Assembly (NCBI GenBank): GCA_015075745.1
Contig: JABTTW010000001.1
Location: forward strand, 1,426,001-1,490,000
From: Planctomycetia bacterium
GTDB lineage: Bacteria > Planctomycetota > Phycisphaerae > UBA1845 > UTPLA1
Direction of reading: 5' to 3'
DNA length: 64,000 nt
The translations under genes were made by a program, and so were the position numbers. Positions 3,060 through 62,785 of the stretch are shown one piece after another. Position 1 is the stretch's first letter; the number at the start of each line of letters is the position of its first letter. The notes under the pieces are model-generated. The model ran no database searches. It was given only the letters and a program-made list of their open reading frames with translations, and was not told the DNA's origin.

Positions 3060-4073
3060 GTGGCCATGCAGACGTACACGATCAACTTCCCCAACCCGGA
3101 GGACCCGCCGGTCTCGGTGCCGTCGGCCGCCTATCACTATCTGCACGATGTGCTCGGCAGCGTGATCGGCCTCGTGAACGACGCGGGCGAACTTGTCGAG
3201 CAATACACCTACGACCCCTACGGCAAGGTGTTCATCGAGAAGTGGGACGCGGCGGCCAACGGCGGCGCGGGGGCGTGGCTTGCATCCGCCGAGCCGACCA
3301 GCGGCAAGCTGCCGGTCTCCTCGATCGGCAACCCGTTCCTGTGGACCGGCCACCGCTACGACGCGGCCGTCGGGCTCTACGCCACGCTTTACCGCACCTA
3401 CTCGCCGACCCTCGGCCGCTGGCTGCAACGGGATCCTGCCGAGTACATCGACGGGGTCAATCTTTATGAGGCGATGCGTAGTAATCCCGTTGTTTTTACT
3501 GATCCTTTTGGAGACGCTGTTCCGCTTGTAGCCGGTGCTGTCGTCGGCCTCTCCACTGCCGAGACCATCGCGGCATCATTCGGATTGACTCTTACTGCAT
3601 GCATGGCGACGCCAAGTTGCAGAGATGCGGTTTACGAAGGTCTGAGAGATGGCGTTCGCGAAACAGCTAACGTAATATCTCGCGCGGCGGAGAGAATTGC
3701 GGACAGGGCATGGAGGCTACGAAGAGCGATCGAACGGAGATTTAGAGATGGATACCGTAGGCGCGGAGATTGCACCCCAGGCCAACATGATGCATTGCAA
3801 GCGGCAGTTGAAATGGCGTGCAAGGAGAAGGCAGGTGAGCGAAGTTGTGTCGGCGTGTCAGACTGCAAGACCATACTTGCGAATCTTGCAAAGAATGCCG
3901 CCTGCAATGCCGCGAGAAACAGAATCAACATGCTGTGCTTTGGGGGCGGAAACTTAGGTCACCAAACTGCGGCAAACCAGTCTGCGACTGCAATGGGGAC
4001 GTGTGTCTCGCAGGGAATCGCCAATCACTGCTTCAAGAGGCACGAACGTCCCGGCCATGGTTGTAATAAGTAG
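3060..4073 (+). CDS. RHS-core polymorphic toxin, N-terminally truncated, Ntox16-like C-terminal domain
   Basis: The 337-residue product begins in the last RHS/YD repeats (YHYLHDVLGSVIGLVNDAGE, YDPYGKVF, GHRYDAAVGLYATLYRTYSP) and the core signature LGRWLQRDPAEYIDGVNLYE near residues 120-140. This precedes the junction where toxin tips are swapped. The tip has a helical stretch and then, from residue 238, a Cys-rich domain (C238, C254, C263, C269, C282, C293, C315, C324) with CTPGQHDALQ, RINMLCFGGG and NLGHQ. This resembles the predicted polymorphic toxin domain Ntox16, recalled from family knowledge and not searched. The GTG start is arbitrary: the same frame stays open with RHS-like sequence (TRHVYFGLEVIQEYE) back to about 2917 and into the tRNA. 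The normal shell-forming N-terminus of over 1000 residues is absent, so it is probably a displaced or orphan tip cassette. The DUF6714-like immunity candidate follows. Confidence 0.8.
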   Translation: MAMQTYTINFPNPEDPPVSVPSAAYHYLHDVLGSVIGLVNDAGELVEQYTYDPYGKVFIEKWDAAANGGAGAWLASAEPTSGKLPVSSIGNPFLWTGHRYDAAVGLYATLYRTYSPTLGRWLQRDPAEYIDGVNLYEAMRSNPVVFTDPFGDAVPLVAGAVVGLSTAETIAASFGLTLTACMATPSCRDAVYEGLRDGVRETANVISRAAERIADRAWRLRRAIERRFRDGYRRRGDCTPGQHDALQAAVEMACKEKAGERSCVGVSDCKTILANLAKNAACNAARNRINMLCFGGGNLGHQTAANQSATAMGTCVSQGIANHCFKRHERPGHGCNK

Positions 4074-5163: not shown

Positions 5164-6754
5164 CCCGAATATTTCATCAGGTCGGCGTTGAATAGGAATA
5201 GAAAAAGCCTCGAAGCCCTGTAGACTGGGGTTTCGTAAGAACATTCCGGTCCATAGGCAGGGAGGCTTTTTCGTGACAGACTGTAACAGCAAACCGATGT
5301 TCTTTTCCAGTCTCGGCCGCAAGAAAATCGTGGCCGATTTCACAGGCGGAACGCTCACCTCAGACGCCGGGGGTCTGCTGCTTCGGGAGGTCGAGCGGCG
5401 TCTGGGCCTGGTCGATCAACTGGCCGGGGTCATCAACGACCCGCGTGATCCGGCCCGAATTCAACATGACCAGCGGGTCATGCTGGCCCAGCGCATCTTT
5501 GCCATTGCGATGGGCTACGAAGATCTCAACGACCATCAAGCCCTGCGGAGCGATCCCGTGCTGGCGGTCCTGACCGGGCGGCCGCCGAGCGCGGATGAGC
5601 CGCTGGCCAGCAGTCCGACCTTGTGCCGGCTGGAGAACCGCGTCACGCGCGGCGACCTGGCACGAATGTCGCGTGTGCTGGTGGAGCAGTTCATCGCGTC
5701 CTATGAATCGCCGCCGGAGGAATTGATCCTCGACTTCGACGCGACCGACGATCCGATCCACGGCAACCAGGAAGGCCGCTTCTTCCACGGCTATTACGAC
5801 CACCACTGCTTCCTACCGCTGTATGTGTTCTGCGGCTCGCGGCTGCTGGTCTCCTACCTGCGGCCCAGCAACATCGACGGGGCCCATCACGCCTGGCCCA
5901 TCCTGAAGCTGCTGGTGCAGCGCTTGCGACAGGCGTGGCCCGGGGTGCGGATCATCGTCCGCGGGGATTCCGGCTTCTGCCGCCGGCGAATGATGAAATG
6001 GTGCGACCGGCACGGCGTCAAGTACGTGCTGGGCCTGGCCCGCAACACCGTCCTGGAGAAAGCGGCCGAGTCCTTCATGCAGGCGGCCGAGGCCCAGTTC
6101 GCCACCACGCAGCAGAAGGTGCGGAACTTCCACGAGATCGAGTACGCGGCGCAGACCTGGGATCGCCCGCGCCGCGTGATCGTCAAGGCCGAGCGGCTGG
6201 TTCAGGGGCCCAACGTTCGATTCGTGGTGACCAACCTGACCGACCGCACGCCGAACGATATCTACGACGGTCTGTACACGGCCCGCGGCGACATGGAGAA
6301 CCGCATCAAGGAGCAGCAGCTCGGGCTCTTCGCCGATCGCACCAGTTGCCACGCCTTCCTGGCCAATCAGTTCCGGCTGCTGTTGTCCTCGGCGGCCTAC
6401 GTCCTGGTGGAAACGCTGCGCCGCACGGCCCTGGCCGGCACCGAACTGGCCGAGGCCCAGGTGAACACCATTCGCCTGAAACTCCTCAAGGTCGCCGCGC
6501 GGGTGGTCGTCTCCGTGCGCCGCGTCGTACTGCGACTGTCGAGCAGCTGCCCCCTGCAGGACCTGTGGCGATCCCTGGTTCCACGACTCCGCCTGATCCC
6601 GCCCGCCCCATCATGACCCGAAAAACAACCTGATCACCGCTTGGGGGTAAGGGGGCTCTGCGCGCCCCAACCTCCACCTTCATCCCTCCGCTCACGCACA
6701 AAGCCGAAAAACTCCGTCCATCACCATTCGAAGATCACTGATGAAATATGCGGG
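5164..6754 (+). mobile_element. Complete IS1380-family insertion sequence
   Basis: A 1591-bp element bounded by 17-bp imperfect inverted repeats: CCCGAATATTTCATCAG at 5164-5180, and the inverse of CCCGCATATTTCATCAG at 6738-6754, one mismatch. It is flanked by the CTAA duplication. It carries one intact transposase gene on the + strand and sits inside an RHS fragment, whose two halves join cleanly when the element and one duplication are removed. An intact frame and near-perfect ends suggest recent insertion and possible mobility. Confidence 0.95.
5273..6616 (+). CDS. IS1380-family DDE transposase
   Basis: A 447-residue transposase with a GTG start at 5273. Family hallmarks are the N-terminal FTGGTLTSDAGGLLLREVE segment, ILDFDATDDPIHGNQEG with the first catalytic Asp at about 156, RGDSGFC with the second Asp at about 232, and RGDMENRIKEQQ with the catalytic Glu at about 342. 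Length matches the family (about 420-460). There is a 93-bp non-coding lead from the left inverted repeat to the start codon and about 120 bp after the stop. The frame is unbroken, so the protein is probably functional. A GGAGG sequence lies upstream of the start. Confidence 0.95.
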   Translation: MTDCNSKPMFFSSLGRKKIVADFTGGTLTSDAGGLLLREVERRLGLVDQLAGVINDPRDPARIQHDQRVMLAQRIFAIAMGYEDLNDHQALRSDPVLAVLTGRPPSADEPLASSPTLCRLENRVTRGDLARMSRVLVEQFIASYESPPEELILDFDATDDPIHGNQEGRFFHGYYDHHCFLPLYVFCGSRLLVSYLRPSNIDGAHHAWPILKLLVQRLRQAWPGVRIIVRGDSGFCRRRMMKWCDRHGVKYVLGLARNTVLEKAAESFMQAAEAQFATTQQKVRNFHEIEYAAQTWDRPRRVIVKAERLVQGPNVRFVVTNLTDRTPNDIYDGLYTARGDMENRIKEQQLGLFADRTSCHAFLANQFRLLLSSAAYVLVETLRRTALAGTELAEAQVNTIRLKLLKVAARVVVSVRRVVLRLSSSCPLQDLWRSLVPRLRLIPPAPS

Positions 6755-8827: not shown

Positions 8828-11101
8828 TCAGTCTTGCCGCGATCCTGCCTCATGCCCCGCAGGCGGCGTCGCACTTGCTTGCCCCCCCGCGCCCTGGCCC
8901 GTTTGAATCTCCGTCAGCAGCCGGCGCGACTCGGCCGTCTCCGGGTGCGTTTCGCCAAGTACGCGGATACGCATCTCCAGTGCTTCCTCGCAAAAACGCC
9001 CAGCCGCGCCCGCATCGCCCCCCCGCCATGCCAGACTCGCCAGGTTATGCAAAACCCGAGCAATGTACTGGTGGTCGCGCCCCAATCCTTCGTCGCGCTG
9101 CATGATCCGCAGCGACTCGCGATACGCTTCCGTCGCCCCGGCCATGTCGCCCTGCTCCTCGAGAAACTTCCCGAGATTATTCTGCATCTTCGCGACCTCC
9201 GGGTGATCCGGTCCGAACGCCCCGAGGCGAATGCGCAGGGCCTCACGATAACAGCGCTCCGCCTCCCGGACCGAATCGGCGTCGGCGCGACTTCGGTAGA
9301 GACCGCCGAGATTGTTCAGCGTTTGTGCCACGTCATTGGCAGCGCGGCGCCGCTCCTTGAGGCTGTTAGGCTGCCGCGTCTCCGCATCGGCATACACCCG
9401 CCGTCGCAAAAGCAGCGACTCCTTCAAGTGGCGCTCGGCCTCGTCGAGCTTCCCGCGCCGCCGGAGGAGATTGCCGATGTTGTTAAGCGTCTCGGCCACG
9501 TCGGCCTGTGACCCACTCTCCCGCCGAGCCGCCAGGGCCCGACGCCACAGTTCCTCCGCATCATCGAGTCGCTCCTGAAAATACCGAAGCTCCCCGAGGT
9601 CATTCAGGCTCTCGGCCGTTTCCGCGTCCGCGTCGCCAAGCAGGCGCTCGCGCGTCGAAAGCGCAAATGAAAGGTGCGACTCCGCCCCGTCAAATTCGCT
9701 GAAGCTCAGATAGGTCATTCCCATCGTATTGCGCACGGCCGCCGCAACCAGCGGATCGTCTTCCAGCTCCGCCTCGATCTCCCGCGAGCGCGCGTTCAGC
9801 GTCTCCAACACCGTCACATCACGCCGCCCCGCCTTCCACGGGTCGGCCGCCTCATAAAGCGCCTCAAATTCCGCAATGATGCGCGACTTCTTCGCCGCCT
9901 CCCCGGCAATCCGCCGCGCCTGCACCACCGCGACGACTCCTGTCACCGCAATGGACACGATCAACAGCCCCATCAGCATCGCAGGAATCTTGTGCCGCGA
10001 GATCATCTTGCGAAGGTGATAAACCGTGCTCAACGGCCGCGCGTGGATCGGATAGCCCTTGCGAAACCGATCGATGTCCTCCGCCATCGCCGCGACGCTC
10101 TGATACCGCCGCGCCGGGTCCTTCGCCAGCGCCTTGAGATTAATCGTCGCCACGTCACGCGGAATCTCAGGCGCCAGTCTTCTCGGGTGCTCCGGCTCGC
10201 GATCGCAGATAATGCGAACCTTCTCCAGGATGGAGTGGCTGTCCAGCCGGTACGGCATCTCCCCGGTCAGCATCTGATAGAGAATCACCCCCAGCGCATA
10301 CACGTCACTGCGCAAATCAATCCCGTCGGCGCTGCCCCGCGCCTGCTCCGGGCTCATGTACGGAAGCGTTCCGACGAGCCGGCCGCTCTCCATGACCAGC
10401 GACCGCCCGTCGGCGCCCTCGTCGTCGATGATTCTGGCCAGACCGAAATCCAGAATGCGCGGTTGCCCGCCCGCCGTCATCAGAATATTGCTCGGCTTCA
10501 GGTCGCGGTGAATGACGCCCCGCTGGTGCGCGTAGTTGACGCCGTCGCAGATCTTCATGAACAGTTCGAGCTTCCGCCCCATCGCCGCCGCCGAGCGATC
10601 GCCCGACGCCACCGTCGCATCATCGAGCAGCGTCACGCCATCGACGAGTTCCATGGCGAAGTAGTGGTTGCCGTCCTCGGTCCGGCCCGCCTGATAGATC
10701 GCGGCGATGGCCGGATGATTCAGCCGCGCCAGCGAGATGATCTCCCGTTGAAACAGCTTGATCTGCAAATCGCTAACGTGCCGTCCCCCGATGATGACCT
10801 TCAGCGCCACGCGCCGCTGCGTCTCGGGCTGCTCGGCCTCATAAACAACCCCCATCCCGCCCTGACCGATCTTGCGAATGATCCGGTAAGGCCCGATGAA
10901 ATCCGGCGGCGCCGCCAAAGTAACCGGCACTGCCTGTGCGGCATCTCCAATGTCGCCGAGCAGCGCACGCATCTCCGCCGCGCGCCGGCCGCACTCCGCA
11001 CAATCCTCGACGTGCCGCGCAATCTCGGCGCACAATGCGTCGTCGTCCTCTTCATCGTGTACCCAGGCCCAAAGGCGATCGTTCGACATCCCGCAAGTCA
11101 T
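8828..11101 (-). CDS. Membrane Ser/Thr protein kinase with N-terminal zinc-finger-like motif and C-terminal TPRs
   Basis: A 757-residue Hanks-type kinase. Residues 30-37 (HVEDCAEC) form an HxxxCxxC motif of the anti-sigma zinc-finger type. The kinase domain covers about residues 70-350, with glycine loop IGQGGMGVVYEAE, catalytic Lys101, HRDLKPSN (198-205), DFG (218-220) and the MSPEQAR activation segment. One membrane segment lies at about 372-394 and is followed by an extracytoplasmic region rich in TPR repeats (LNNIGNLLRRRGKLDEAERH and relatives) to about residue 730. The start codon overlaps the stop of the ECF sigma gene (ATGA), so the two are translated together. A role as anti-sigma and phospho-switch for that sigma factor is inferred; ECF-kinase pairs of this kind are common in planctomycetes. 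Confidence 0.93.
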   Translation of the reverse strand: MTCGMSNDRLWAWVHDEEDDDALCAEIARHVEDCAECGRRAAEMRALLGDIGDAAQAVPVTLAAPPDFIGPYRIIRKIGQGGMGVVYEAEQPETQRRVALKVIIGGRHVSDLQIKLFQREIISLARLNHPAIAAIYQAGRTEDGNHYFAMELVDGVTLLDDATVASGDRSAAAMGRKLELFMKICDGVNYAHQRGVIHRDLKPSNILMTAGGQPRILDFGLARIIDDEGADGRSLVMESGRLVGTLPYMSPEQARGSADGIDLRSDVYALGVILYQMLTGEMPYRLDSHSILEKVRIICDREPEHPRRLAPEIPRDVATINLKALAKDPARRYQSVAAMAEDIDRFRKGYPIHARPLSTVYHLRKMISRHKIPAMLMGLLIVSIAVTGVVAVVQARRIAGEAAKKSRIIAEFEALYEAADPWKAGRRDVTVLETLNARSREIEAELEDDPLVAAAVRNTMGMTYLSFSEFDGAESHLSFALSTRERLLGDADAETAESLNDLGELRYFQERLDDAEELWRRALAARRESGSQADVAETLNNIGNLLRRRGKLDEAERHLKESLLLRRRVYADAETRQPNSLKERRRAANDVAQTLNNLGGLYRSRADADSVREAERCYREALRIRLGAFGPDHPEVAKMQNNLGKFLEEQGDMAGATEAYRESLRIMQRDEGLGRDHQYIARVLHNLASLAWRGGDAGAAGRFCEEALEMRIRVLGETHPETAESRRLLTEIQTGQGAGGQASATPPAGHEAGSRQD

Positions 11102-11667
11102 GGATTCGTCCCGGAAAGACCCTCCAGGCGTTCTCGCAGAAACTCCGATGCCCGAACCAGCCGCCCCTTCACCGCGGCCTCCGTGATGCCCAGCGTCTGC
11201 GCCATCTCCTCGCGCGAGAATCCGTCGAAGTGCTTGAGCATCAACACTTCGCGATACTCCGCAGGCATCTGAGCGATGATCTGTCGAATGATCTCCGCCC
11301 GCTCCTCCCGCGCCGCCCGCGTATGCGGCCCCGCCGTCGACTGCGCCGCGTCAAACCCGGTGCGAATCAGCCGGTTATGCGTCGGGCTGCGCTGATGTCG
11401 GCGCAGAATATCCAGACAGCGATTGCGGGCCACCTTGTAGAGCCACGGCCTCGCCGATCCGGCGGGCAGCTCAGTCGTCGTCGCAATCTTCGAAAACGTC
11501 TCCTGCACCACGTCCTCGGCCAGCGCATCGTCCCCCAGGTAAGAGGCACAAAATCGATGCAGGGGCGACCAGTAGCGGCGGGTCAATTCATCCGTGGCCG
11601 TGGTGTCGCCCTTCCGAAGAGATTCGATCAGGGTTTCGTCAGAAGGGGGTGTGGATTCGCTGGTCAT
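11098..11667 (-). CDS. ECF-family RNA polymerase sigma factor
   Basis: A 189-residue sigma-70 family factor of the extracytoplasmic-function type. Region 2 is seen in DELTRRYWSPLHRFCASYLG, DALAEDVVQETF and RPWLYKVARNRCLDILRR. Region 4 is AQMPAEYREVLMLKHFDGFS followed by the helix-turn-helix REEMAQTLGITEAAVKGRL. It is the first gene of a two-gene operon with the Ser/Thr kinase (4-bp ATGA overlap), which probably controls its activity. Its own promoter must lie in the 330-bp spacer shared with the divergent metalloprotease gene, an attractive target of the sigma factor, although no repeated promoter motif was identified. Confidence 0.95.
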   Translation of the reverse strand: MTSESTPPSDETLIESLRKGDTTATDELTRRYWSPLHRFCASYLGDDALAEDVVQETFSKIATTTELPAGSARPWLYKVARNRCLDILRRHQRSPTHNRLIRTGFDAAQSTAGPHTRAAREERAEIIRQIIAQMPAEYREVLMLKHFDGFSREEMAQTLGITEAAVKGRLVRASEFLRERLEGLSGTNP

Positions 11668-11889
11668 GAGCCTGCCTTGACGAGATGACTTACCGAAAAA
11701 CCCGGCGAGAGGCCATTTTACGGAGTTTCACCACGCCCGTGGAGTTTCTGCCAGAAATCGGGCACGTCCCACACGTCATGACATTCAGCCCACGCCCCTG
11801 AAAAGGGCCTCTACGGGGCCGCAATCGAGCATTTTTGCCTATTTCGAGATTCGCGGTCCGCCCGCTCCCCCTGTTCGTGACAAAGGTAG

Positions 11890-54281: not shown

Positions 54282-54325
54282 AAAAAGCTCCCCCGTGGGG
54301 GCGAGGTTCGCCGGCCACGGGGGAG
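54282..54325 (-). terminator. Intrinsic terminator of the low-complexity protein operon
   Basis: On the minus strand CTCCCCCGTGG and CCACGGGGGAG form a perfect 11-bp stem around a 16-nt loop, followed by G-C and TTTTT. It lies about 70 bp after the stop of the 573-residue protein and ends the two-gene unit. Confidence 0.88.
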
Positions 54326-54393
54326 TCGGTTGAATTATAAACGCCGTGCCGCGCGAGGGCGGTGCCATCGAGACGACGCCGGCGTGGGTGATG

Positions 54394-56115
54394 TCATTGA
54401 GCGCCCGGCGTCATCGGACCCGGCATGGAGGAACCAGGGATCGAGTATCCCGAAATCGGGGAGCCGGGAATTCTGCCGCCGGAGTTGCTGACTCCAGCCA
54501 TGACGGACATCGGCATGTTGCCGATGGCGGTCATCGGGACGGGGAGGCCGTTGGGGCCGACTGCAACCATGGCCGGCGCGCCGAAGGGCATTGCGCCGCC
54601 GGGTGCATACGCATGGCCAGCCGTCATCGCGGGGACGGCGTTCTGTGCGATTTGCTTGAGAACGGCGTCGGGCGGAGCGAATTCGCGGTCTTCGCGTTCG
54701 CGCTGGGGCTCGGTGCTTCCCATAAGGTACTGCATCATGCACCAGAAGCGGACGCAGAGTCGCCGCGAGGTTTCAAACTCGGCCGTGGCGTCGAAGGCCA
54801 AGCGCAGTCCGGCGAGGCCGATGTGGGCCGGCGTCGGGATGTGCTGAAGCGTTTCGACCCAGTGAAAGTCGTGGTCCGTCGAGCAGGTCTCGTCGCCGGC
54901 GAGGAGGACGTCCTTCACCTTTCCGGAGGTGCTCATTTCGACGGCCGCGATCGGCTGTACGAAGTCCACGATGCGACCGCCGCCGAGTTTCTGGCAGGGC
55001 GACAGGGCGATCAGACCAGCGACGGCGCGCGTCTCGGTGACGAATGCCAACCATGACGAGCCAAGCTGCATGGCGAGCCGGTTGGGGTCGCCGCAGAGCA
55101 AGTGCACCTGGCTGAAAAGTTCCCGGGCGGGTTCGCCGAGGTTCATCAGCGTGAGTGTCTGCAGCATGACGTGCCATCGGATGTAGGCCGGGGGCACGGG
55201 CGAGTTTGCCTGGATCGTGACGGCGGCGACGGGATCGCTGCCGAGGGTTTCGATCATGCCACTGACGTAGGCCGGGCCGAGCTTGAGGGTGGCGAAGACA
55301 TCCGCGAAGAGCGTCTCATGCCACTGCGCCCAGAGGACGGCCGCCTGTGGGCGAACGCCGCCGGAGACGGACTCGGTCTGAAGCTTGCCGGCGATTTCCC
55401 AACTGATGTTGAGATCGTGATAGACGCAGCGGCCCACGTCGTGGGCGACGGCGACGATGCTCCAGGGCTGGCCGATGAGCCGGCGCGGGATCGTCACGAG
55501 CGAGACCGGGATCTGTCGACCGAGGTTCATGCCGTGCTGCACGTGGTGCTGCCACGGAACGCGACCCTCGGGCACGTCGGCGAGATAGGCCAGCGGCGTG
55601 CGAGAGAGGCATTCCTTGGACACCAGTCCCCGCTGATGAGCGAGCTTGACGGTCGGCAGGTACAGATCGCGCATGATCGCGTCGATGGTGACGAGCTTCT
55701 GATGCAGCTCGTGACTGGTGTGCTGCCGCAGGACCTGGAAGACAAAACCGAAGGTGTCCTCGTTGGGCAGCACGGTGCGCAGTTCGGCGTCGTTGATGAT
55801 CGCCAGGGCATCGTGGGGCCGACCCTGATCGAGCATGGTTCTTGCGCGATCGAGCTGGTCGTTGGTCTGCTCGAGGACGTAGTCATACCAGCGCGAGAGG
55901 GTCTTGAGCTGGGTGGCGACGGATTTGAGCCTCGTTCGCGTCAACTCAAGATCATTGGGAAAAGCGGCCTGCTCGGCCGGGGTAAACCGGACGAGCAGGT
56001 CTTCCTTCATTTCGCCTGAGACCTCGTCGCAATAGAGAGACCAGCGTCTGAGGCTGGCCTGAATATGGCGGGCGCGGTTGCGCAGGCTGACGAGTTTCTG
56101 TTGAATCGTGTTCAT
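54394..56115 (-). CDS. Hypothetical protein with degenerate zincin-like motifs and disordered Pro/Gly/Met tail
   Basis: 573 residues, no signal peptide. The N-terminal 130 residues are coiled-coil-like (TRTRLKSVATQLKTLSRWYD, EQTNDQLDRARTML). The central part has WSIVAVAHDVGRCVYHDLNI and AAVLWAQWHETLFADVFATL followed by KLGPAYVSG. This HD..R...HD plus HE...AD...LGPAY arrangement resembles the H-E-x-x-H and E/D motifs of certain zincin metallopeptidases, but the canonical HExxH is altered (HDVGR), so activity is doubtful. The last 80 residues are low-complexity (PGGAMPFGAPAMVAVGPNGL). The start has AAGGA upstream. It follows the Asn/Pro/Phe-rich protein by 67 bp and shares its terminator. Family not recognised. 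Confidence 0.7.
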   Translation of the reverse strand: MNTIQQKLVSLRNRARHIQASLRRWSLYCDEVSGEMKEDLLVRFTPAEQAAFPNDLELTRTRLKSVATQLKTLSRWYDYVLEQTNDQLDRARTMLDQGRPHDALAIINDAELRTVLPNEDTFGFVFQVLRQHTSHELHQKLVTIDAIMRDLYLPTVKLAHQRGLVSKECLSRTPLAYLADVPEGRVPWQHHVQHGMNLGRQIPVSLVTIPRRLIGQPWSIVAVAHDVGRCVYHDLNISWEIAGKLQTESVSGGVRPQAAVLWAQWHETLFADVFATLKLGPAYVSGMIETLGSDPVAAVTIQANSPVPPAYIRWHVMLQTLTLMNLGEPARELFSQVHLLCGDPNRLAMQLGSSWLAFVTETRAVAGLIALSPCQKLGGGRIVDFVQPIAAVEMSTSGKVKDVLLAGDETCSTDHDFHWVETLQHIPTPAHIGLAGLRLAFDATAEFETSRRLCVRFWCMMQYLMGSTEPQREREDREFAPPDAVLKQIAQNAVPAMTAGHAYAPGGAMPFGAPAMVAVGPNGLPVPMTAIGNMPMSVMAGVSNSGGRIPGSPISGYSIPGSSMPGPMTPGAQ

Positions 56116-56182
56116 CGTGCTATTCCTTCTCGGGCATCACCCGTAATTGCTTCCCGAAAGAACGCTTAGCCGGCTTGTCGCA

Positions 56183-57508
56183 TCAGATGCAGCAAGTGGG
56201 CGAGCACGAATTGACGACGCCGAACGGGCTGTAGTTTGGAACGGTCGATGCGGCACCGAATCCGCCGACGGTTGACAGCGGGTTGAGGCCGTAGGAATTG
56301 TTGACAAACGGCGTGGTGGTCGAGATCGGGGAGAAGCCGTTGGTCGGGTTCCAGTTGTTCCAGGGGGTCGTGTTGTTCCAGGGCGTCGCTGCGAACGACG
56401 GGATCGCCGAATTCAGGAGATTCCAAGGGGTCGTGTTCACGAATGGATTCGACACCAGGGACGGGATGCCGCCGAGCGGGCTCACGCCGAATGGGGAGGG
56501 CGAGAGGCGCGACCAGAGCGACGGGTTCAGGTTGTTGATGAACGGCGTGGCAGGATTCCAGCCGTTCCAGATCGGGTTGCCGATCGACTGATTCCAGATG
56601 GAAGAGCAGTTGAAGGGGTCAATGCTTGCGCCGACGGGATTGTTTGCGAACAGGGGATTTGCGAACGGCGCGATGCCGAACGGCGTGACCGGCGACGGAC
56701 CGCTTACGAGCGGATTGACGTTTACGGCGAACGGGCTGGTCAGTCCCGGGAAATTGACCGGGTTGGAAAAAAAAGGGGTACCGAATCCCGGCTGCTGGAT
56801 GGGATTGATCGTGCCGAACGTGCTGGTCATCGGGTTCACCCAGGCGCCGAAGTTCGGCGTCGAGAAGCCCGGCCGAAACTGCGAGATCGGATTCATGAAC
56901 GGGGTCATGGGGTTCACGAATGCCGACGCGGGATTGACAAACGGGGTCATCGGGTTGACGAACGGCGTCGGGCCAAACGGGGTCGGCATGGCGCCGAAGA
57001 ACGGATGGGCCGTCGCGCCGAAGTTGGGGATGAAGTTCATCGGGTACTGCGTCGAGATGCCGGTGTATGGGTTAACGGCGTAGTTGTACGGCGTCGTCGT
57101 CGGGCAGCCGGTGAAGGAATTCGGGGTCTGGTTGATGAATGGATTGAAGGTGTTGTAGGGGTTCATCGTGGCGTACGGATGGGCGTATGTGCCGAAGCCG
57201 GGCTGGACCCAGGGATTGACGGGCGTGGGGATGCAGCCAAATGGAGTCGGCTGATAGGCCGGGATGCCGGTCGGGATGCCGTAGGCCGTGGGGATGCCGT
57301 TGGAGAAGGGCATCTGTCCGGGGACAAAGTTCTGGAAAGCGTAGGCGGCGGGATTGGGCTGGCCGACCGGAATGCCTGCGTAGGTCGCGGCACCGAGGGC
57401 GGGGTTATAGGCCTGAGTGGGCTCGGCGGTACGAGCCTGGCCGTTGGTTCCGCAGGTCTGCGGATCGAGGGTGGCGGTGCCTCCCTGATATGAGTAGGCG
57501 TTAAACAT
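56183..57508 (-). CDS. Low-complexity Asn/Pro/Phe-rich repeat protein
   Basis: 441 residues from the ATG at 57508, which has AAGGAG upstream; a longer frame to 57616 is not needed. Nearly the whole protein is made of short degenerate repeats around TPF, NPF, NPM and NPx (TPFVNPMTPFVNPASAFVNP, TPWNNTTPWNNWNPTNGFSP), with no signal peptide and few charges. It ends in a Cys cluster (CSPTCCI). The composition predicts an intrinsically disordered, phase-separating or fibre-forming protein and superficially resembles FG/NPF-type repeat proteins. It is the first gene of a two-gene unit. No function is claimed. Confidence 0.75.
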   Translation of the reverse strand: MFNAYSYQGGTATLDPQTCGTNGQARTAEPTQAYNPALGAATYAGIPVGQPNPAAYAFQNFVPGQMPFSNGIPTAYGIPTGIPAYQPTPFGCIPTPVNPWVQPGFGTYAHPYATMNPYNTFNPFINQTPNSFTGCPTTTPYNYAVNPYTGISTQYPMNFIPNFGATAHPFFGAMPTPFGPTPFVNPMTPFVNPASAFVNPMTPFMNPISQFRPGFSTPNFGAWVNPMTSTFGTINPIQQPGFGTPFFSNPVNFPGLTSPFAVNVNPLVSGPSPVTPFGIAPFANPLFANNPVGASIDPFNCSSIWNQSIGNPIWNGWNPATPFINNLNPSLWSRLSPSPFGVSPLGGIPSLVSNPFVNTTPWNLLNSAIPSFAATPWNNTTPWNNWNPTNGFSPISTTTPFVNNSYGLNPLSTVGGFGAASTVPNYSPFGVVNSCSPTCCI

Positions 57509-58243: not shown

Positions 58244-58957
58244 ATGGAGCAGGAGAACAGATTTTGTGAGGATGCCGTGATCAGGGATCAATGGATCCCG
58301 GTGTTTCCACTTCCCAATGTCGTGCTGATGCCTCGTCATGTGCTGCCGCTTCACATCTTCGAGCCCCGGTATCGCGCCATGACCCGCGATGCACTGGCCG
58401 GGTCCAGGCTGGTTTCGATCGCCCTGCTGCGTAAAGGCTACGAAGAGAAGTATCACACGCTTGAGGCTCCCATCCACGAAGTCGTCGGTGTCGGTCAGAT
58501 CATGCGCAACGAGCGGCTACCGGACGGCCGGTACAACATCCTGCTTCAGGGTCTGAAGCGTGCCCGAATCGTCGCAGAGAATAGTGAGCTTTCCTATCGC
58601 CGGGCGAAAATGGAGCCGCTGGAGCCGGGACCGCTGCCCTGCGAGGTTGAGCTGGAGTTTCGGCGCAGCATCGTGGAACTGCTGGGCAGTCAGACGATGG
58701 TTGAGCTGGCCAGGCAGGGCAACTGGACGAATCTGCTCGAGCATCGCCATGCCTCATTTTCAGACCTTGTTGATGCGCTCGCCGCGTCGGTCCTGATCTG
58801 TCCCGATGAGAAACAATGTTTTCTGGAATTGGTGTGCGCCGCCAAGAGGGCCCGTTACTTGTGCGCCGCGCTTCAGTCGATGCAGTGCCGCCCCCCTGCC
58901 CCTCCGCCTCATGAACATCGGCCGAGAAGCTGGCCGCCGGGAACTTTCGACAACTAA
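58244..58957 (+). CDS. LON N-terminal (substrate-binding) domain protein
   Basis: 237 residues. Family signature IPVFPLPNVVLMPRHVLPLH followed by IFEPRYRAM near the start, then ISVALL-like LVSIALLRKGYEE, VGVGQIMRNERLPDGRYNIL and LQGLKRARIV. This is the PUA-like LON substrate-binding domain without ATPase or protease domains, present as a stand-alone protein in many bacteria with unclear role. The C-terminal half is helical. A GTG at 58277 with GAGG upstream is an alternative start. Confidence 0.92.
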   Translation: MEQENRFCEDAVIRDQWIPVFPLPNVVLMPRHVLPLHIFEPRYRAMTRDALAGSRLVSIALLRKGYEEKYHTLEAPIHEVVGVGQIMRNERLPDGRYNILLQGLKRARIVAENSELSYRRAKMEPLEPGPLPCEVELEFRRSIVELLGSQTMVELARQGNWTNLLEHRHASFSDLVDALAASVLICPDEKQCFLELVCAAKRARYLCAALQSMQCRPPAPPPHEHRPRSWPPGTFDN

Positions 58958-61375: not shown

Positions 61376-62785
61376 ATGCATGGTGACGCGGGCCCTCGTT
61401 CGCCGACCCATAGGAGAACCATCGTGTTCGTGCTGGTGGTTTCCGACGAAACGTCTCTCGCCCGCCGCGCTCTCCATCTCATTGCAATCGTCAAGCCACG
61501 ACGAATCGGCTTCTGCCTTTCTGCCATTGTCGCGATTCAGCCCGGCTGCAACCCCCCGGCCGGTTCGAATCTGCCTTGTGCGGGCAGCCAGGGAAGCGCA
61601 CAGGTGGGATTGGCCGACGGTTCGTGCGGCGCATTTGGCAACGGGACTTACACACTGGCAGAAGCCGGAATCACATACCGCGTCATCCTGAACAGCTTGT
61701 CGCGTCCATCTGAGGTTTTCTGGGGCACGTCCCATGCCGCATTTGCATGGAGCAATGACTCGTCACAAGTGACCGCAATCATTGACGAGGAGGGGGCTTC
61801 AGAAATGCACACCTACATCGTATCGAACCCGGGCAATGTTCGTACCAAGTCGGCGTCGTACGCGTCAACCGTCGTTTCGTCCGAATCGGTCGACATCAAA
61901 GTGCTCCTCGGGCCTGCTGCATCGGGCGCGGTTCAATCGGGAGAGTCTTCAGTCGGCGCAACTGGCGTGGCAGAGCGGTCCGTGACAAACGACGCCAAGC
62001 AGATCATCGCCACGTTTCAGAACGCCCCGCCGTTTCGGGATATTCCGGACTATCTCACCTATCTTGGCATGCAGGCTTTGGCGAATAGTTCGTTGGGGGA
62101 TATGATGATGATGCACATCCAGGGGGAAGGACGCGTACCGACCCGGTCCGAGGCGTTCTTGATCGAAACCCTTTCCAGAATCAGCAACATTATCGATCGC
62201 ATCGCCGATCATCAGGAAGATGCATGCTTGCCTTGCACGGCGCTATGCGGTCTGGGCTGTTACGGCGCTTGTCGAACGTCCGCCGGAGGGGTGACCCTGT
62301 GTGTCGTGCGTCGATCGACCGAGTGCCTCCCCTCCAGCACCTTCACGCTGGGCGCCGGCTGCTTCGATAGCGACACCGGGGCCTGCTGCCTGCGACGATT
62401 TGATGAGCCTCGCGGGTGTCGGCCTACCGGTTTGCTCCCCTGCACCGACGAGGGGGGACGATTCAGTCCCATTATTCCGTGTGAATCTGCGAACTGCGCG
62501 CCGGGCGGCGCTTGCTGCCTGGGTAATTTCCAGTGCTTTGCCGCCTTCGATCATCCCGATTGTGAAGCGATTGCGAACCGAGAGGAGGCTTCATCGTTCA
62601 CTTTTCACGAAAATATGACCTGCGACGAACTGGCTGAGGTCGATCTTTGTAACCAGGGCGTCTGCTGCTTTCCGGACGGAAGCTACAACTGCGACTACAG
62701 GAACAGAGAGGCGTGCCTTCAGTCCGGTCGTGAGGGTGCCCGCTTTGCCTTTGGACCATGCGAGGCGGCTACCTGCGGCCATTGA
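61376..62785 (+). CDS. Secreted Cys-rich hypothetical protein
   Basis: 469 residues. A hydrophobic segment (RIGFCLSAIVAIQPGC) near residue 50 may be a signal or lipoprotein anchor, so the true start may be later than 61376 (for example an in-frame codon nearer 61430). The middle has no recognised domain. The C-terminal third carries planctomycete-type Cys repeats: DTGACCLRRFDEPRGC, GGACCLGNFQCFAAFDHPDC and QGVCCFPDGSYNCDYRN, each followed by a short Cys-containing tail. Such repeats occur in many secreted planctomycete proteins of unknown role. It is flanked by the PHP gene and the PHP scar. Confidence 0.75.
   Translation: MHGDAGPRSPTHRRTIVFVLVVSDETSLARRALHLIAIVKPRRIGFCLSAIVAIQPGCNPPAGSNLPCAGSQGSAQVGLADGSCGAFGNGTYTLAEAGITYRVILNSLSRPSEVFWGTSHAAFAWSNDSSQVTAIIDEEGASEMHTYIVSNPGNVRTKSASYASTVVSSESVDIKVLLGPAASGAVQSGESSVGATGVAERSVTNDAKQIIATFQNAPPFRDIPDYLTYLGMQALANSSLGDMMMMHIQGEGRVPTRSEAFLIETLSRISNIIDRIADHQEDACLPCTALCGLGCYGACRTSAGGVTLCVVRRSTECLPSSTFTLGAGCFDSDTGACCLRRFDEPRGCRPTGLLPCTDEGGRFSPIIPCESANCAPGGACCLGNFQCFAAFDHPDCEAIANREEASSFTFHENMTCDELAEVDLCNQGVCCFPDGSYNCDYRNREACLQSGREGARFAFGPCEAATCGH

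Follow-up and report, generated by a model that had tools for sequence, protein, structure and literature searches.

A low-complexity Phe-motif protein and a putative pseudo-peptidase encoded as a linked gene pair in one planctomycete family

The window analyzed here, a stretch of 64,000 nucleotides from a Planctomycetia bacterium, encodes two adjacent proteins that appear to be maintained as one unit. P1 is a nearly uncharged protein rich in Asn, Pro, Phe, Thr, and Gly, and P2 is a putative pseudo-peptidase whose closest relatives by sequence are HExxH zinc peptidases. No described system of this form was found in the literature and libraries searched, and we know of none in which a neutral Phe-motif polymer and a pseudo-peptidase are combined. 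Our leading interpretation, which we hold tentatively and at somewhat below an even chance, is that the two proteins constitute a scaffold module, in which P1 would be the disordered polymer and P2 its binding partner, a pseudo-protease.

The gene pair and the composition of P1

The first-pass annotation had described a unit of two open reading frames (ORFs) sharing a strong terminator, and both ORFs and the terminator were found at the positions given in Table 1. P2 lies 67 bp downstream of P1, and the terminator hairpin has a folding energy of -32.1 kcal/mol (z -3.5) that was equaled by none of 200 shuffled sequences. A mechanical ORF list placed the start of P1 at an upstream TTG; this start was rejected in favor of the one encoding MFNAYS, which is preceded by AAGGAG. 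Strong AGGAG-type sites are also located upstream of most of the homologs. The ribosome-binding sites, the selection acting on both genes, and the conserved composition (see below) led us to reject the idea that P1 and P2 are chance ORFs or frame artefacts.

Table 1. Coordinates of the gene pair, its sequence features, and the divergent neighbor in the window.
Feature	Position	Strand	Remarks
P1, low-complexity N/P/F/T/G-rich protein	56183..57508	-	441 aa, 6 charges, no Lys
P1 conserved N-terminal motif MFNAYSYQGGTATLDPQTCGTNGQARTAE	57422..57508	-	family pattern M[FY]..(Q)GGTATLxPQ..G.NG..R..E
P1 C-terminal Cys cluster NSCSPTCCI	56186..56212	-	Cys in last 1-3 residues in 13/13 homologs
Shine-Dalgarno AAGGAG of P1	57518..57523	-	good ribosome-binding site
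P2, putative pseudo-zincin partner	54394..56115	-	573 aa; homology to intact HExxH proteins over residues 113-403
P2 residues 225-230 HDVGRC, putative HExxH remnant	55426..55443	-	first His retained; Asp in place of Glu, Arg in place of the second His
P2 residues 262-272 WAQWHETLFAD, putative third-ligand helix remnant (W..E...D)	55300..55332	-	ligand Glu to Thr
P2 residues 306-313 PVPPAYIR, site of the invariant His-Pro of the intact family	55177..55200	-	His to Val
P2 low-complexity Pro/Gly tail	54397..54621	-	last 75 aa, 1 charge
Intrinsic terminator common to P1 and P2	54281..54325	-	11-bp stem, then CTTTTTG
Stand-alone LON substrate-binding-domain protein (PF02190, E 5.6e-30)	58244..58957	+	head-to-head with the pair

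The LON-domain neighbor was considered as a third component and dropped, as its gene occurs in 16 of the 17 genomes of the bacterial family and stands beside the pair in only 6 of 12. Being near-universal in the family, it is probably only a landmark. Elsewhere in the window, a protein with short Cys-rich repeat units (GACCL..., GVCCFPDG...) is encoded at 61376-62785 (+) and has no Pfam match at E 0.01; two further features were named by eye, the C-terminal piece of an RHS-type protein (3060-4073, +) and a transposase-like ORF (5273-6616, +) that lies downstream.

P1 consists of 17% Pro, 12% Asn, 10% Thr, 9% Phe, and 9% Gly. Among the 52 window ORFs of at least 200 aa, it has the lowest fraction of charged residues (1.4%) and the highest content of Asn, Pro, Phe, and Thr combined (48%). 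The motif [NT]PF occurs 11 times in the body of the protein, compared to an expectation of 1.5 ± 1.2 and a maximum of 6 in 1000 composition-preserving shuffles, and the Phe, Tyr, and Trp residues are spaced more evenly than in shuffles (z about -5). Evenly spaced aromatic residues are a pattern of sticker-and-spacer proteins and are linked with phase separation. The repeats are irregular, three of the six charges sit in the N-terminal motif, and three of the seven Cys residues lie close to the C-terminus (7, 3, and 2 residues away from it). The earlier description of P1 as built almost wholly of TPF/NPF repeats with few charges and a C-terminal Cys cluster is thus well founded. No match to P1 was found in Pfam, NCBIfam, PHROGs, or PDB, and no paralog in its own genome. 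AlphaFold2 (AF2) run on the single P1 sequence gave no fold (pLDDT 34), a result that agrees with disorder but carries little weight on its own; from this prediction and its composition, P1 is apparently disordered. A role of P1 in a condensate, fiber, or barrier, as had been suggested at first pass, is compatible with the composition, the aromatic spacing, and the fold-less prediction.

The same composition raises another reading, in which P1 is a structural protein of the envelope or the extracellular space (a coat, fiber, or matrix), cross-linked through its C-terminal Cys and exported by a non-classical route, with P2 serving it in the cytoplasm as a chaperone or export adaptor. Abundant Pro, Asn, Thr, Gly, and aromatic residues together with terminal Cys are reminiscent of structural proteins, Cys is strictly C-terminal in every P1 copy, and a dedicated neighbor would suit a chaperone. 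However, P1 has neither a transmembrane segment nor, as judged by eye, a signal peptide, and conserved secretion genes beside the pair were not found. We consider this reading unlikely.

Conservation of the pair

In a search of 114 genomes of the order, full-length relatives of P2 were found only in the bacterial family of the window (family f1), in which 12 of 17 genomes carry 13 copies that are 43-66% identical. A P1-type ORF lies directly upstream of all 13 copies on the same strand, and a P1 profile search hit exactly the same 12 genomes, with no match in the other five (Fisher p 1.6e-4 over the 17 genomes, with shared ancestry ignored). The homolog search thus bears out the annotated pairing of the two genes as neighbors. 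Among 392 sampled genomes of the phylum, the P1 profile gave no match outside f1; judging from these searches, the unit is so far confined to one planctomycete family.

Genome G105 carries two P1-P2 pairs whose P2 proteins are sisters in the tree (support 97/97), so the whole unit was duplicated. In G112, the pair lies between a LON-domain gene and a gene that, judged by eye from its sequence, is of the RNase-H type; in G098 and G103, these two flanking genes are only about 0.2 kb apart, with no detectable remnant of the pair between them. On the tree of the LON proteins, these empty sites may reflect either loss of the pair or its never having been gained. The gene surroundings of the pair vary among the remaining genomes. 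The identical presence and absence of the two genes and the empty sites in G098 and G103 indicate that P1 and P2 come and go together. Between two close genomes (G099 and G101), dN and dS were 0.016 and 0.49 for P2 and 0.088 and 0.55 for P1. These values indicate purifying selection on both proteins, including the body of P1, and faster evolution of P1.

The P1 homologs are each 360-520 aa long over their full length. The N-terminal motif (around GGTATLxPQ..G.NG..R..E) is present in nearly all of them and holds most of their charges, and the Asn/Pro/Phe/Thr/Gly body is variable: pairs of homologs share on average 40% identity over the first 32 and the final 8 positions, versus 27-35% over the body. 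The compositional character is nonetheless shared. Aromatic residues are more evenly spaced than in shuffles in all 13 sequences (z -1.3 to -5.0), [NT]PF is several-fold above shuffles, FG is one of the four commonest dipeptides in the bodies, and 11 of the 13 sequences have no Lys. The second P1 of G105 contains 34 charges, so the low charge of the family is not absolute. A conserved N-terminal stretch followed by a variable body and terminal Cys could also be expected of a precursor whose short repeats or Cys tail are cut out and modified, as in a peptide natural product. Against this, the repeats are irregular, no conserved modification enzyme or transporter was found beside the pair, and P2 is predicted to be dead as a protease (see below). 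A precursor role is thus extremely improbable.

The zinc site of P2 and the proposed function

Searches of P2 itself against Pfam, NCBIfam, PHROGs, PADLOC, and PDB gave no match. The profile of its family, however, reaches proteins of about 430 aa elsewhere in the phylum, one of which leads on to Bradyrhizobium, Sinorhizobium, and Paraburkholderia plasmid proteins. These outside relatives display an intact HExxH...W..E...D zinc-peptidase pattern plus a His-Pro His. When the P2 clade alone was aligned with the intact family alone using hhalign, the two matched over P2 residues 113-403 with a probability of 99.7 and an E-value of 5.3e-27, and P2 retains the W, D, G, P, and R residues of the site region. 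In the tree, whose deep branches are long, the P2 proteins form one clade (support 99/99). The initial label of P2 as degenerate zincin-like is upheld by the intact HExxH...E ligands of this outside family, and P2 appears to descend from an unnamed family of zinc peptidases with the pattern HExxH...W..E...D...G...HP.

The catalytic features of that family are lost in the P2 clade. The two motifs singled out at first pass, of which the first begins with HDVGRC and the second lies within WAQWHETLFAD...LGPAYVSG (residues 262-286), correspond to the sites of the zinc ligands. The second zinc His is missing in all 13 P2 proteins, and the third-ligand position is occupied by Thr, Val, Ile, or Cys, whereas both HExxH and the third-ligand Glu are intact in all 13 outside relatives. 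Likewise, the His of His-Pro is missing in 13/13 P2 proteins, compared to its retention in 12 of the 13 relatives. The earlier suggestion that the partner may cleave P1 is thus disfavored, since two of the three zinc ligands are gone from every copy, and an active protease was rejected on the same grounds. As a standard zinc site should be unable to form, P2 is predicted to be a pseudo-peptidase; it lacks the catalytic features of zincins though it is a zincin by descent, and we have therefore filed it as a pseudo-member.

It may be argued that P2 is still an enzyme that processes P1 by another metal site or chemistry, as the first His is present in 11 of 13 copies and the Glu of HExxH in 12 of 13, and the site region contains an invariant Asp, Gly, Pro, and Arg. 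The loss of the second His, the third Glu, and the His-Pro His in every copy, as well as the Glu-to-Asp replacement in the window copy, speaks against this possibility and makes it very improbable.

Outside the zinc site, the annotated coiled coil of P2 has weak support. AF2 with an alignment of three sequences (pLDDT 38.6) did place helices at the N-terminus, in line with a coiled coil, but at low confidence. The Pro/Gly tail is confirmed as a low-complexity segment with a single charged residue; a long tail is found only in P2 of the window, G108, and G109, being short or absent elsewhere.

In the scaffold module that we tentatively favor, P1 would act as a sticker-and-spacer polymer, with Phe, Tyr, and Trp as stickers and Pro, Asn, Thr, and Gly as spacers, and may form a cytoplasmic condensate or network by self-association. 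P2 would keep the peptide-binding body of its ancestor without its chemistry and bind P1, most likely via the conserved N-terminal motif, thereby nucleating, anchoring, or limiting the assembly. The uncharged Pro/Gly tail of some P2 proteins might allow them to enter the phase formed by P1, whose C-terminal Cys may cross-link or hold a metal. The first-pass proposal that P2 may bind or assemble P1 is left standing.

Among known proteins, P2 can be compared with pseudoproteases such as FtsHi of plants, in which, according to PMC8197885, the protease site is lost and the protein is still needed. P2 resembles them in having lost catalytic residues with the rest strongly conserved; it differs in belonging to another fold family, in having no AAA domain, and in having a dedicated low-complexity partner.

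For P1, the closest likeness is to FG-nucleoporins and prion-like scaffolds of eukaryotes, with which it shares low charge, short Phe-rich motifs, evenly spaced aromatics, and Asn/Thr/Gly/Pro spacers. Of the features typical of FG-nucleoporins, P1 has low charge, spaced Phe motifs, and a long stretch with no predicted fold. In contrast, its Pro content is much higher, NPF/TPF takes the place of GLFG/FxFG, and neither a pore nor a transport receptor is known for it. Since Pfam, NCBIfam, and PDB gave no nucleoporin homology, the resemblance appears to be one of composition and spacing, without homology. No conserved scaffold gene was found beside P1. Papers on pore-like structures of planctomycetes (for example PMC5287468) deal with other organisms and other proteins. 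A bolder version, in which P1 forms a meshwork or compartment of Phe motifs with physics like that of the FG-nucleoporin barrier, run by a pseudo-protease recruited out of a conflict system based on proteases, is speculative and quite improbable.

Planctomycetes have been central to a long debate over internal organization in bacteria, and to our knowledge dedicated Phe-motif scaffolds of bacteria are poorly known. With a single, strictly linked partner, the pair would allow a scaffold and its handler to be tested together.

Gene setting of the intact HExxH family

The intact relatives of P2 are often preceded by a low-complexity protein of their own, which is acidic and of a Gly-zipper, LEREFELE type. 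This arrangement was observed in G308, G388, G495, G487, G330, G208, G115, G090, and Paraburkholderia. The P1-P2 pair retains the order of a low-complexity protein followed by a zincin-type protein; its low-complexity member, an NPF protein in place of the acidic Gly-zipper protein, is unrelated in kind, and the rest of the zinc-peptidase island is absent around the pair. The loss of the zinc site in the P2 clade was accompanied by the loss of the old neighbors and the gain of a new low-complexity partner, presenting what may be a clean case, as read from the sequences, of a protease turned into a binding protein.

Several intact relatives are located near CHAT, C25, caspase, S8, VanY, patatin, or PLD genes. 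The pair may accordingly be viewed as the relic of a conflict system from such islands, in which P2 serves as a sensor or decoy and P1 as a bait or regulated polymer in defense or cell death. The neighbors of the intact relatives, their frequent position directly downstream of the acidic Gly-zipper protein, and the PADLOC peptidase_U41 match of one relative (E 4e-11) are in line with this view. Moreover, PMC8195603 reports inactive zincin-like domains as effectors of immune-like systems in bacteria; these and P2 are both bacterial, inactive, and zincin-like, but the reported domain, as compared by its description, forms a fusion with a STAND NTPase system, whereas P2 stands alone with P1. On the other side, ORF clustering revealed no recurring CHAT-, C25-, or caspase-type neighbors and no recurring defense neighbors by the pair in the 12 genomes, PADLOC gave no match for P2 and PHROGs none for P1 or P2, and relatives in phage records were not found. 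A conflict relic is in our judgment distinctly unlikely. A phage origin of the pair was rejected, given that PHROGs and phage matches were lacking and no relatives were found in viral contigs.

The survey of the intact family also brought to light gene arrangements of separate interest. The acidic Gly-zipper protein with its LEREFELE-like N-terminus, the intact HExxH protein, and one or two further genes make up an operon type for which we found no description. The loci concerned (L033, L034, L035, L037, L038, L039, L040, and L063) belong to planctomycetes and to a Paraburkholderia plasmid, and caspase, VanY, and other genes lie in the vicinity. Intact family members also lie on rhizobial plasmids beside CHAT and C25 peptidases (L062 and L064), and the relative matching peptidase_U41 is from Sinorhizobium. 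In addition, locus L036 of a planctomycete genome encodes at 9599-11818 a hemocyanin-like protein (Hemocyanin_M, E 1e-26; Hemocyanin_C, E 3e-20), whose gene adjoins two CHAT-domain genes and two genes of the zincin family.
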